From the NCBI GenBank assembly GCA_015295835.1, contig DVEG01000011.1, forward strand, positions 1 to 64,000: 64,000 nt of DNA, given 5' to 3'. Position 1 is the stretch's first letter. Each line of letters begins with the position of its first letter. Below, in pieces: positions 29,216 to 33,665 of this stretch. The translations under genes and the position numbers were made by a program. The stretch is from Oscillatoriaceae cyanobacterium M7585_C2015_266. GTDB lineage: Bacteria > Cyanobacteriota > Cyanobacteriia > Cyanobacteriales > Oscillatoriaceae. Below the pieces are notes generated by a model. It worked only from the letters and a program-made list of their open reading frames with translations. It did not search any database and had not been told where the DNA came from.

Positions 29216-30289
29216 ATGGGGAAAGTTTTTATGAAGACTATCACCGAGGTTTATCCCGTAATCTGGAAAGGCGATCGCGTGTTACTCATCGATCAAAATC
29301 GGCTGCCCATTGAATATATTACAGTCGAAATCACCAGCCTAGAAGAAATGGCACAAGCTATTAAAACTATGATTGTACGAGGCGCCCCGGCAATAGGCAT
29401 TTCGGCAGCTTACGGAATGTATCTGGGAGCACGAGAAATTCAAACAGAAAATAAACAAGAATTTCTCTCTCAGCTTGAAAAAATTGCCCAGCTTTTGCGG
29501 GCAACTCGTCCAACAGCAGTTAATCTGTTTTGGGCAATTGAGCGAATGCTCAAAACTGTTCGCCAGGCTTCCGGCTCGGTAGAAAAACTCAAACAAGTTT
29601 TATTGGAAACAGCTCAGCTCATTCAAGTTGAAGATTTACAAACTTGTCAAGCAATCGGTGAACACGGATTGAAAGTTTTGCCCCCTACCCCCCACAAGCT
29701 GCGCATTCAAACCCACTGCAACGCTGGAGCTTTGGCAACTGCCGGTTATGGCACGGCTTTGGGAGTGGTGCGTGAGGCTTGGCGAGCGGGGCGCTTGGAG
29801 CGTGTCTATGCTGATGAAACCCGCCCCCGTCTACAAGGTGCTAAACTCACATCCTGGGAATGTGTGCAAGAAGGAATTCCTGTTACTGTTATCACTGATA
29901 ATATGGCAGCCCACTGCCTAAAATTAGGAATGATTGACGCGATCGTGGTGGGTGCTGATCGTATTGCGGCTAATGGCGATACAGCAAATAAAATCGGTAC
30001 TTATAATTTGGCGATCGCTGCTAAATATCACAATATTCCTTTCTTTGTCGCCGCTTCTCTCTCAACGGTTGATTTTAAACTCGCTACTGGCGCAGAAATT
30101 CCTATTGAGGAGCGTGACCCTGTTGAGATTTACCAAGTTGGCGATACACGCCTTACTCCCCCTGGTGTCGAATTTTACAATCCAGCATTTGATGTCACGC
30201 CTGCTGAATTGATTTCTGCTATTATTACTGAATATGGGGCGCTCGCACCTACTGAACTCATAAAGCTTCGAGAAAAGCAAGTTTTTTAG
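29216..30289 (+). CDS. mtnA: S-methyl-5-thioribose-1-phosphate isomerase
   Basis: A 357-residue enzyme of the methionine salvage pathway that converts methylthioribose-1-phosphate to the ribulose form. Motifs are [25 protein letters not shown], the active-site [18 protein letters not shown] with its Cys, [15 protein letters not shown], and the second acid [20 protein letters not shown]. An alternative ATG at 29231 would remove five residues. It belongs to the eIF2B-related family, but the THCNAG and GADRI motifs fit MtnA. Confidence 0.95.
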
Positions 30290-30743: not shown

Positions 30744-30764
30744 GTATCTGTATCAGAGTTTCCA
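30744..30764. repeat. direct repeat flanking patX, copy 1
   Basis: 21 bp matching 31003-31023 at 20 of 21 positions (pattern GTATCyGTATCAGAGTTTCCA). It lies downstream of patX, 54 bp beyond its stop. Confidence 0.85.
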
Positions 30765-30782
30765 CGCCTAGATACAACCCAT

Positions 30783-30807
30783 CAGCCGTGTTATAGATAC
30801 ACGGCTG
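30783..30807 (-). terminator. patX terminator hairpin
   Basis: CAGCCGTG and CACGGCTG form an 8-bp perfect stem with a 9-nt loop, 10 bp after the patX stop. No clear T-run follows on the minus strand, so termination strength is uncertain. Confidence 0.55.
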
Positions 30808-30817
30808 GCTTTAAATG

Positions 30818-30997
30818 TTAACACCGCCTTCCACTGCCACGGTGAGGACAAATTCCAGTTCCAGCATCTGCTTGCGCTTGTTGAGCAGCGGCGGGTAGAA
30901 ATTGGGCTTTGGCACTATACTCACTTTTTGTGAGATAAGTTGCTATGCCCATTAAAAATAGGCATGAAAACAAAAGCGAGCTGTAGGTGCTGCGCAT
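30818..30997 (-). CDS. patX: PatX-type exported RGSGR peptide precursor
   Basis: A 59-residue secreted peptide precursor. The N-terminus is a signal peptide (basic/polar start, hydrophobic core around residues 8-20, AKA at 29-31 as likely cleavage site). A short Ala/Gln-rich mature region leads to a C-terminus containing HRGSGR (residues 52-57), then RC. Established: PatS and HetN carry RGSGR, which inhibits HetR; PatX proteins, with signal peptide and C-terminal HRG(S/T)GR, accompany HetR in filamentous cyanobacteria. Inferred: this gene encodes the PatX signal of this strain. ATG 30997 is preferred over an upstream TTG at 31024. Flanked by a direct repeat and followed by a hairpin. Confidence 0.85.
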   Translation of the reverse strand: MRSTYSSLLFSCLFLMGIATYLTKSEYSAKAQFLPAAAQQAQADAGTGICPHRGSGRRC

Positions 30998-31002
30998 AAT
31001 AG

Positions 31003-31023
31003 GTATCCGTATCAGAGTTTCCA
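31003..31023. repeat. direct repeat flanking patX, copy 2
   Basis: Second copy of the 21-bp element, immediately upstream of the patX start (6 bp away) and so within its probable 5' leader. A TTGGAAACT nonamer is also duplicated next to it. Confidence 0.85.
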
Positions 31024-31035
31024 AGTTTCCAAATT

Positions 31036-31066
31036 CCTATACAGAATTTCCTGGCCCAGATCCGGA
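31036..31066 (-). promoter_or_regulatory. possible patX promoter with DIF-like TCCGGA
   Basis: TCCGGA lies at 31061-31066 and TATAGG at 31036-31041, 19 bp apart, placing a start about 30 nt before the ATG. TCCGGA near -35 is the hallmark of developmentally regulated DIF-type promoters in Anabaena. It is a common palindromic hexamer, so this may be chance. Confidence 0.35.
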
Positions 31067-31173
31067 AAAACCTAGATGTAGCAGCACAAATTTCCCATCA
31101 GACTGCGCTGTATCTGTTCGTAGTTTTATTTATTTAATATTTAAGATGGAAGGGCGTAGCAAAAAAACTAGGC

Positions 31174-31189
31174 ACCGAATTATTTCGGT
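31174..31189 (-). terminator. possible psb34 terminator
   Basis: ACCGAA and TTCGGT form a 6-bp perfect stem with a TTAT/ATAA loop. On the minus strand seven T residues follow six bases later. Weak but placed correctly after psb34. Confidence 0.4.
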
Positions 31190-31261
31190 AACCCAGTAAT
31201 AAAGCAGAGAATATAGAGATGTTCAAAAAGAATCAAAAAGAATTAGGAAAAAAGGTTATTA

Positions 31262-31441
31262 TCAGCCAACTTTTGATACGGAGAAGGCGACAAAAAGCAA
31301 GCCGCCAACTAGCACTGTACCCAGAATTGCCATAATAATATAATTCCGCCGCTCGGTTTTGGTGGGGGGTTCAGCTTTATACATTTTTGGCTCAGTGGCG
31401 AAATTGTTTAGTCGTCCGCCTTCTTCAGTGGTATAGGGCAT
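31262..31441 (-). CDS. psb34: Psb34 (ssl1498 family light-harvesting-like protein)
   Basis: A 59-residue single-span thylakoid protein. It begins MPYTTEEGGRLNNFATEPKM and continues through a Thr/Glu/Arg linker to one hydrophobic helix (about 35-54), ending SVSKVG. The N-terminal pattern is that of the ssl1498/Psb34 family, which binds photosystem II assembly intermediates near CP47 and resembles high-light-inducible proteins. GAGGAA lies 7 nt before the ATG. A 13-bp palindrome ACTCAGTCTGAGT sits at 31464-31476 upstream. Confidence 0.9.
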   Translation of the reverse strand: MPYTTEEGGRLNNFATEPKMYKAEPPTKTERRNYIIMAILGTVLVGGLLFVAFSVSKVG

Positions 31442-31628: not shown

Positions 31629-33665
31629 CTATTGCGAAATTATGCCGGTAAGGGGCGAACTAGCGCTGGCGGTAGATTTGACGGGGATGCGACCTGCGAG
31701 ATAGGCGAGACGACCGGCAATAGTGGCCATACCCATGGCTTTAGCCATTGCGACAGGGTTTTTAGCTAGGGCGATCGCACTATTAATTAAAACGGCATCT
31801 GCGCCCATTTCCATTGCTTGCGCTGCCTCGCTGGGGGTGCCAATTCCTGCATCTACCACAACTGGTACTTTAGCATTCTCGATAATAATTTGTATGTTAG
31901 CGGCGGTTTTGATTCCCTGCCCCGAACCGATGGGCGAACCCAAAGGCATTACTGTTGCGCAGCCGACTTCTTCCAGACGTTTGGCAAGCATTGGATCGGC
32001 ATTGATATAAGGCAGCACCGTAAACCCTTCTTTTACCAACTGCTCTGCAGCTTGCAGGGTGCCGATAGGATCGGGTAAAAGGTATTTAGGATCGGGAATC
32101 ACCTCTAACTTAACAAAATTATTATCTTCTTGCCCCAGAATTTTGGCCATTTCCCGCCCCAAACGAGCTACGCGAATAGCTTCTTCTGCAGTTTGACAAC
32201 CGGCAGTATTTGGTAGCATCCAGATTTTTTTCCAATCCAGCGCTTCTGCCAACCCTTGGTGCCCAGGAGCATTGGTTTGTACTCGGCGCACTGCTACGGT
32301 GACGATTTCGCAACCGCTGGCAATGATACTTTGCTGCATTTCGGCGATGCTGCGGTATTTGCCTGTACCAGTCATCAACCGCGAGTTGAATTGGCGCTTG
32401 CCTATTATTAAAGGCGTATCAACAGACAAACTTGGCGATGTTTCCCTGGCAGAAGTTGCTTGCAAGGTTGCGTATGCCAGCATGGAAGGGGAATTTTTGA
32501 TAGTAGTGGAATTGTCAGCGGGTAAACAAACGACAGTTTGCTTTGTTTGAGAATTTTGGCGGTTGAAAAACCGAGAGGCGCTAAAATGCTCCAAGAGCGG
32601 ATCGGTTTTTTGCTGCAATATCAAATCTGCCAGCAAAACCGCCGTTATCGGCGCTAACAATATGCCGTTGCGATGGTGCCCCACCGCTAAAGTTAAATTT
32701 GGGCAGGAACTGGGACCAAGAATTGGCCACTCGTCGGGTGTAGTTGGTCGAAATCCCCACCAAAATTCTTGAATGGGATAATGCTGTATTTGGGGATAGA
32801 GGCGGATTGCCCTTGCTAACAGCGCTTGCATTTCGGCTGGAGTATTGCCGGGAGTAAATCCGACGTCTTCGCTGGTGGCCCCGATCACTATTTGGCCATG
32901 GCGGCGGGGGACGATATAGGTATCGGGACCAAACAGCACCCGCTGCAAGCTCCCGCTTTGGGAATTGGTGGGCGAGAGTTCTACGCTTGAGGGGTGCGCT
33001 CGCACTGCTAACATTTGCCCTTTTTTCGGATAAATTGGCAACGGCAGCAGTTGATTCGACCACGCACCAGTGGCTAAAATGTAGTGTTGTGCCTGAAAAT
33101 CGCCGGCAGAAGTCCGGATGCAGGTGACGCGCTGGTTTTGCTGAGCGATCGCTTCAACTGTCACACCTTCGCGGACATCAATTTTTAGTTCTCGAACGGC
33201 AGCCCACAGTGCCTTTGCTAAGGCGCGGCTGTCTACCTGCCCATCTTCGGGAAACCACCATCCCCCAACAACATCTGCGCCCAACCCCCGTTGGTGTTGG
33301 TGAATGGCATCGCGATCAAGCCAGATTGCAGGTGGAGAGGCAGGAGGGATATCTGAAATTGGCTCGTACACGGGAGCCAAAATGCCGCAGGGCCAATAGT
33401 CGGTTGAAACTGCTGCTACCTGTTCGAGTTTACTGAGCCAGTCTGGATAAAGCGAGCGCGAGCGTAAACACAAGTCCAACATCGGCCCAGGGGGGATGCC
33501 TTCGGCTTGAGGCGCCAGCATGCCAGCGGCGGCGTGAATGGCTGCTTCTTTAAAATCACGGCTAATGACGGTGACAGATGCCCCTCGCATTTTCATTTCT
33601 ATAGCTAGCGAAAGACCGATAGTGCCACCGCCAATAATCAGAATCTCACTCGAAGAATTCATCAC
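31629..33665 (-). CDS. thiO-thiG: ThiO-ThiG fusion: glycine oxidase and thiazole synthase
   Basis: A 678-residue bifunctional thiamine-synthesis enzyme. The N-terminal half (about 1-370) is the FAD-dependent glycine oxidase ThiO, with the dinucleotide motif [14 protein letters not shown] and a C-terminal [12 protein letters not shown] linker of about 35 residues, rich in Ser and Thr, precedes ThiG (about 405-670). ThiG shows [10 protein letters not shown], the Schiff-base Lys region [18 protein letters not shown] and [14 protein letters not shown]. ThiO makes dehydroglycine, which ThiG joins to DXP (from dxs in this window) and ThiS sulfur. The fusion is a known cyanobacterial arrangement. 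No TPP riboswitch was seen upstream. Confidence 0.93.

Follow-up and report, generated by a model that had tools for sequence, protein, structure and literature searches.

A psb34-linked patX-type gene, encoding a predicted exported precursor of the RGSGR peptide, in a cyanobacterial genome with a single hetR

The 64-kb stretch of DNA analysed here (hereafter, the window) contains a real, very small minus-strand gene for an exported-type precursor of the RGSGR signal peptide, as confirmed at the level of the sequence. This peptide is an established inhibitor of the developmental regulator HetR, and the explanation that we favor, at a probability of about 0.68, is that this PatX-type precursor feeds exported (H)RGSGR to HetR in the control of a cell fate other than the heterocyst. 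RG[ST]GR turns up once when all six frames of the window are read, and since a first-order Markov control gives a chance expectation of 0.42 occurrences per window, the pentapeptide by itself is no proof of a gene. The gene was judged real from a combination of its match to the PatX profile, an independent promoter model, a conserved locus next to psb34, and purifying selection. The features of the locus, by position in the window, are:

29216 to 30289, plus strand: mtnA, a convergent neighbor, present in three of six relatives' loci (one genus)
30744 to 30776, minus strand: a further, incomplete copy of the 5' element, 3' of patX (promoter model R1, E=0.37, a weak match), with a 21-nt direct repeat shared with 31003 to 31023 (95% identical)
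30783 to 30807, minus strand: 9-bp hairpin 3' of the stop codon (-15.8 kcal/mol), with a 10-bp counterpart at the same position in two relatives' loci (L141 and L151)
30818 to 30997, minus strand: patX-type coding sequence of the psb34-linked type ("type B"), 59 residues plus stop (NF047413, 27.8 bits; cut-off 30)
30827 to 30844, minus strand: HRGSGR codons, predicted mature HetR ligand; RGSGR is kept in 7/7 type-B sequences, with codons changed synonymously
30905 to 30997, minus strand: signal peptide, residues 1-31, with a predicted cut after AKA (AKA/QF), from a reading of the sequence and the (-3,-1) rule
30995 to 31080, minus strand: promoter and 5' leader element of patX, with the right arm CTGATACGGATAC preceding the start codon (R1, E=1.9e-6)
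31036 to 31041, minus strand: TATAGG, a -10-like hexamer read from the sequence
31061 to 31066, minus strand: TCCGGA, the DIF1 (DIF+) motif, -35-like, starting 69 nt ahead of the ATG, with 19 nt separating it from TATAGG
31173 to 31190, minus strand: terminator-like hairpin with a T run in the psb34-patX gap (weak: 2 found vs. 1.5 expected from shuffles)
31262 to 31441, minus strand: psb34 (ssl1498 family), the conserved upstream neighbor (NF033486, 99.7 bits), adjacent in 6/6 relatives' type-B loci
31629 to 33665, minus strand: thiO-thiG fusion, a conserved further neighbor (profile matches and relatives' loci)

The reading frame agreed in coordinates, strand, and length with the 59-codon gene proposed by the first-pass annotation. 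Its product, MRSTYSSLLFSCLFLMGIATYLTKSEYSAKAQFLPAAAQQAQADAGTGICPHRGSGRRC, opens with a basic segment, followed by a hydrophobic core and a site of small residues (AKA/QF); a linker then leads to HRGSGR, which stops two residues short of the end. The predicted signal peptide was seen as had been described; it is clear by eye and in an alignment to PatX N termini. The earlier statement that the precursor ends in HRGSGR held insofar as the motif lies close to the C terminus; the true end comes two residues later, with Arg-Cys. A hairpin had also been claimed to follow the stop codon and is indeed there, with a z-score of -6.5 (0/200 shuffles were equally good) and without a T run.

Against the NCBIfam profile for PatX (NF047413), the protein gave a match with E=3.2e-6, missing the curated cut-off by ~2 bits; a six-frame search with the same profile scored the gene at 26.7 bits. 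The 30-bit cut-off is a score threshold rather than a biological feature, and it was passed by two type-B orthologues at the same psb34-linked locus (42.6 and 33.0 bits). A Pfam search of the window protein returned no match. An alignment of the protein to 16 other members of PatX has five invariant columns: M1 and, within RGSGR, R, G, S, and R. A lack of similarity to PatX, which the first-pass annotation had named as grounds for doubt, is therefore not what was found, and its reading of a PatX-type precursor gains support from the sequence, the promoter, and the conserved locus. Since the curated profile scores the window protein 2 bits too low, PatX genes such as this one can be missed.

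Seven relatives of the family were searched, the seventh of which (G296) is 66% complete. In six of the seven (G291, G292, G293, G294, G295, and G297), an orthologue directly adjoins psb34 and thiO-thiG, encodes 57-61 residues, and contains RGSGR. No block of the type-B precursor is better conserved than the pentapeptide, whose residues are identical in all seven type-B sequences and whose codons differ between the relatives and the window. Across the 21 pairs of type-B genes, dN/dS ranged from 0.15 to 0.54, and from 0.30 to 0.49 for pairs including the window gene, in which dS is high and near saturation. Since the residues of RGSGR remain constant as their codons vary and dN/dS is in this range, type-B patX is, judging from the sequences compared, a conserved protein-coding gene under purifying selection. 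Synteny with mtnA was rejected as the defining link, as it occurs in only 3/6 loci; psb34 and thiO-thiG are the constant neighbors. Co-transcription of psb34 and patX is not favored either, because a promoter element of its own precedes patX and a weak terminator-like site lies between the two genes.

A DIF1-type promoter is present upstream of the window gene at a conserved distance (TCCGGA-N19-TATAGG), with its activity predicted. The 19-nt spacing, read by eye, is shared with two Nostocaceae patX upstream regions (L002 and L003). The distance from the start of the DIF1 motif to the ATG is 63-66 nt in L020/L021 and in 18 patX upstreams of the Nostocaceae type. Since the genome has 541 TCCGGA sites in 3,979,146 bases, the chance of finding one in a given 20-base stretch is ~0.003. 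We also used R1, a sequence-only promoter model built from 26 such upstream regions, none of them from this genome. In the 3.98-Mb genome, R1 produced four matches at E<=1, i.e., upstream of hetR (1.2e-13), on contig C33 (5.0e-7), upstream of the window gene (1.9e-6), and at the partial downstream copy (0.37). In a relative, R1 matched at G296:C106 (E=3e-8). Among the seven type-B genes, exact TCCGGA occurs only in the window copy, with CCCGGA in five relatives and TCCTGA in one. Most patX upstreams of non-heterocystous strains have TCCTGA instead, and between it and the ATG comes CCGTATC-(about 14)-GATACGG. In these strains (L041, L036, and others), the inverted repeat CCGTATC..GATACGG spans the -10 and leader of patX and looks like a putative operator. 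No HetR site (GGGN5CCC) that might serve as an operator was seen by eye in 31000-31100. The partial 5' element that lies beyond the stop of the window gene may be left over from a tandem copy of patX; L141 and L151 have a stretch resembling it after their hairpins, and none was seen after the hairpin in the type-B loci of the other four relatives. Its 21-nt repeat was rejected as a genome-wide dispersed repeat, having two exact copies and two places with two mismatches.

The first-pass annotation had made its reading depend on a hetR elsewhere in the genome, and one was found: the genome has a single PF03574 match (270 bits), on a contig other than that of the window gene (G000:C27). The encoded HetR has 299 residues, a PF18460 hood domain (155 bits), and full-length similarity to crystallised HetR proteins. 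All six residues described as binding PatS6 (R223, E253, E254, D256, D270, and D278; PMC4649674, seen in part) are present, as are six DNA-contact residues. The earlier remark that no heterocyst genes show in the window extends in part to the whole assembly, which is 98.5% complete: it has no HetP-family gene (NF037966) and no nifH above the cut-off, the best nifH match (219.9 bits vs. a cut-off of 394) being ChlL by TIGR01281 (486 bits).

Within the class, hetR (PF03574) is present in 150 of 291 genomes. NF047413 detected PatX in 25/291 genomes, and a profile built from our own alignment (A1) gave matches in 47/291 at E<=1e-5; A1 includes the window protein, whose own A1 score thus follows from the construction of the profile and was excluded as evidence. 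All 47 PatX-positive genomes are among the 150 with hetR (hypergeometric 5e-16, kinship between genomes ignored). The other 103 HetR genomes have no PatX match at E<=1e-5, reflecting either a limit of the search or true absence. In 24 of the 47, the patX match starts ~0.6-1.3 kb from the hetR match, in a list of distances that omits one same-contig pair (G086, about 1.7 kb). In six genomes (G254, G247, G066, G152, G022, and G184), the PatX-profile match crosses an in-frame stop at or just past the motif; such stops may be true protein ends (cf. L020 and L021) and not decay.

Small RG[STG]GR precursors lie within 2.5 kb of hetR in 30 of 80 named hetR loci, several of which end at contig ends, and in 7/7 family relatives. 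In this genome, the hetR-linked patX (G000:C27, about 2022-2150; L001 620-745) has kept the best genomic promoter match (1.2e-13), and has ATA in place of ATG, a stop after 17 codons, and no RGSGR region. RGSGR is absent from every frame between this decayed copy and hetR. The ancestral hetR-linked patX of this genome is a broken relic.

A further precursor, of 128 residues with two HRGSGRKE units (PatX, 32.1 bits), is encoded at G000:C15:19233-19619 (L203 9233-9619). The comparison of such multi-copy precursors covers five relatives (loci L146, L150, L197, L198, and L199), with G292 and G295 left out. HRGSGR is found in six copies in G294, five in G291, and three in G293; the precursor of G296 has six copies, some preceded by E or Q, and that of G297 has three, with N before RGSGR. 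Multiple motifs also occur in the hetR-linked precursors of L061 and L082. On the same contig of this genome, gyrB (L203 10947-13421) contains an intein (TIGR01445, TIGR01443, and PF14890).

A third locus, G000:C33:4820-4993 (L031 1501-1674), adjoins a GGDEF-EAL gene and holds a 57-residue, PatX-like, exported-type ORF without RGSGR (27.3 bits) that has the same promoter type (R1, 5.0e-7). The GGDEF-EAL-linked gene occurs in six relatives, taken as orthologues by neighborhood, and ends in SGGR(R/K) in five and SGSRK in one; loci L164, L183, and L192, which are at contig ends, are left out of this comparison. In L144 and L158, the GGDEF-EAL-linked gene has beside it a further small, exported-type ORF without RGSGR and with the same promoter (E 0.004-0.005).

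In the mechanism that we propose, patX would be transcribed alone from its DIF1-type promoter (TCCGGA, 19 nt, TATAGG), and the precursor would be exported via the Sec route and cut by signal peptidase near AKA/QF. Trimming outside the cytoplasm would then yield (H)RGSGR, which would enter the same or neighboring cells and bind the only HetR of the genome at its hood domain, and peptide-bound HetR would let go of DNA. In this non-diazotrophic genome, the peptide would govern how often, or at what spacing, cells adopt some HetR-dependent fate other than the heterocyst; our guess at that fate is the one already proposed in print, necridia with breakage of the filament (PMC12756182, seen in part). 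Export, trimming, inhibition of HetR, and DIF1-dependent expression are carried over by analogy from work on Nostoc and Anabaena; according to the parts of PMC12756182 available, Nostoc PatX must be exported and undergoes processing by PatP, and HRGTGR has a Kd of 88 nM for HetR, which it prevents from binding DNA.

This explanation is supported by the confinement of PatX to HetR genomes (47/47), compared with hetR in 150/291 overall, and by what the sequences show directly: the gene itself, its membership of PatX by several tests, the shared psb34 locus, the independently modeled promoter, selection on RGSGR, and a HetR whose tested contact residues are intact. Several findings count against it. 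Since Arg-Cys follows RGSGR and R223 of HetR sits at the free C terminus of PatS6 (PMC4649674, in the part available), C-terminal trimming would be needed. Exact TCCGGA is found in only 1/7 type-B genes, the window protein scores under the NCBIfam cut-off (27.8 and 26.7 vs. 30 bits), and 103/150 HetR genomes have no PatX match. The main result against a HetR ligand is a published one, in that PatX effects on expression in the non-heterocystous Leptolyngbya BL0902 were judged basically HetR-independent (PMC11298460, seen in part).

It is conceivable, then, that the gene does encode a true PatX precursor and that its peptide works through something other than HetR, e.g., a surface receptor or the envelope, as has been suggested for BL0902. 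In that strain, two groups of genes behaved alike in the double mutant and in the mutant of patX alone (PMC11298460, same excerpt), and in the present genome there are paralogues under the same promoter that lack RGSGR. However, HetR retains 6/6 tested contact residues, conservation of the precursor is strongest in RGSGR, and PatX matches are confined to HetR genomes, and we consider a target other than HetR unlikely. Less likely still, and in our view improbable, is that the window gene is redundant or decaying, with the C15 polyprotein precursor now supplying the signal; the hetR-linked patX has already decayed and there is another precursor, with two copies of HRGSGR, but the start, signal peptide, motif, and promoter of the window gene are all intact, and dN/dS against the relatives is 0.30-0.49 (with dS near saturation). 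A chance ORF that happens to contain RGSGR, for all that the motif is expected 0.42 times in a window of this composition, was rejected as highly improbable given the independent promoter match, the conserved locus, selection, and the PatX profile match.

With delivery of (H)RGSGR to HetR as the preferred explanation for the window gene, the additional loci raise a broader and more tentative idea, to which we give somewhat less than even odds: several exported peptide precursors under a DIF1-related promoter may constitute multi-peptide signaling in cyanobacteria without heterocysts, in this Oscillatoria-like family. Its members would be the single-copy HRGSGR genes at two conserved loci, the precursors with two to six copies, and the SGGR(R/K) paralogues. 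If so, dosage would be set by the number of copies per precursor, there would perhaps be a second class of ligand, and the locus carrying the signal would turn over. The role of HetR and PatX in filaments without heterocysts has been called a mystery (PMC11298460, in the excerpt available). The present genome is a natural experiment in this respect, with one HetR, no nifH detected, a broken hetR-linked patX, and both an unlinked patX and a two-copy precursor kept. Since a related cultured strain seems to have an intact hetR-linked patX, a psb34-linked patX, and a six-copy precursor, the question can be addressed in culture.

What is new beyond the earlier reading of this locus is the hetR-linked relic, the two-copy HRGSGR precursor, and the promoter-sharing paralogue without the pentapeptide. 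No mention of multi-copy precursors, psb34-linked patX, or SGGR paralogues was found in the literature searched, the scope of which did not include Elhai and Khudyakov 2018, reportedly the founding paper on PatX of filamentous cyanobacteria. PatX in non-heterocystous filaments is itself already published (PMC11298460 and PMC12756182, each seen in part). The window gene resembles PatX of filamentous cyanobacteria, as described in the available parts of PMC7761841, PMC12756182, and PMC11298460, in being a short exported-type precursor with a C-terminal HRG(S/T)GR, a DIF1-type promoter, and hetR in the genome. It adjoins psb34 and not hetR; patX of Nostocaceae is not beside hetR either. PatS and HetN likewise present RGSGR as a HetR ligand; however, their precursors are likely cleaved in the cytoplasm (PMC12756182, in part), whereas the window protein has a predicted signal peptide, and PatS has 17 residues (same source) compared with 59 here. 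The closest parallel in circumstance is Leptolyngbya sp. BL0902, where PatX likewise occurs in a non-heterocystous, nif-less filament with a predicted DIF1 promoter (PMC11298460, excerpt). In BL0902, patX directly precedes hetR and is believed to share its transcript (same excerpt), whereas here the two genes are on different contigs and only a relic of patX remains upstream of hetR. A further difference from PatX as described is that the window gene shares its genome with a hetR-linked copy that is broken, a precursor with two copies of the motif, and a paralogue lacking RGSGR.
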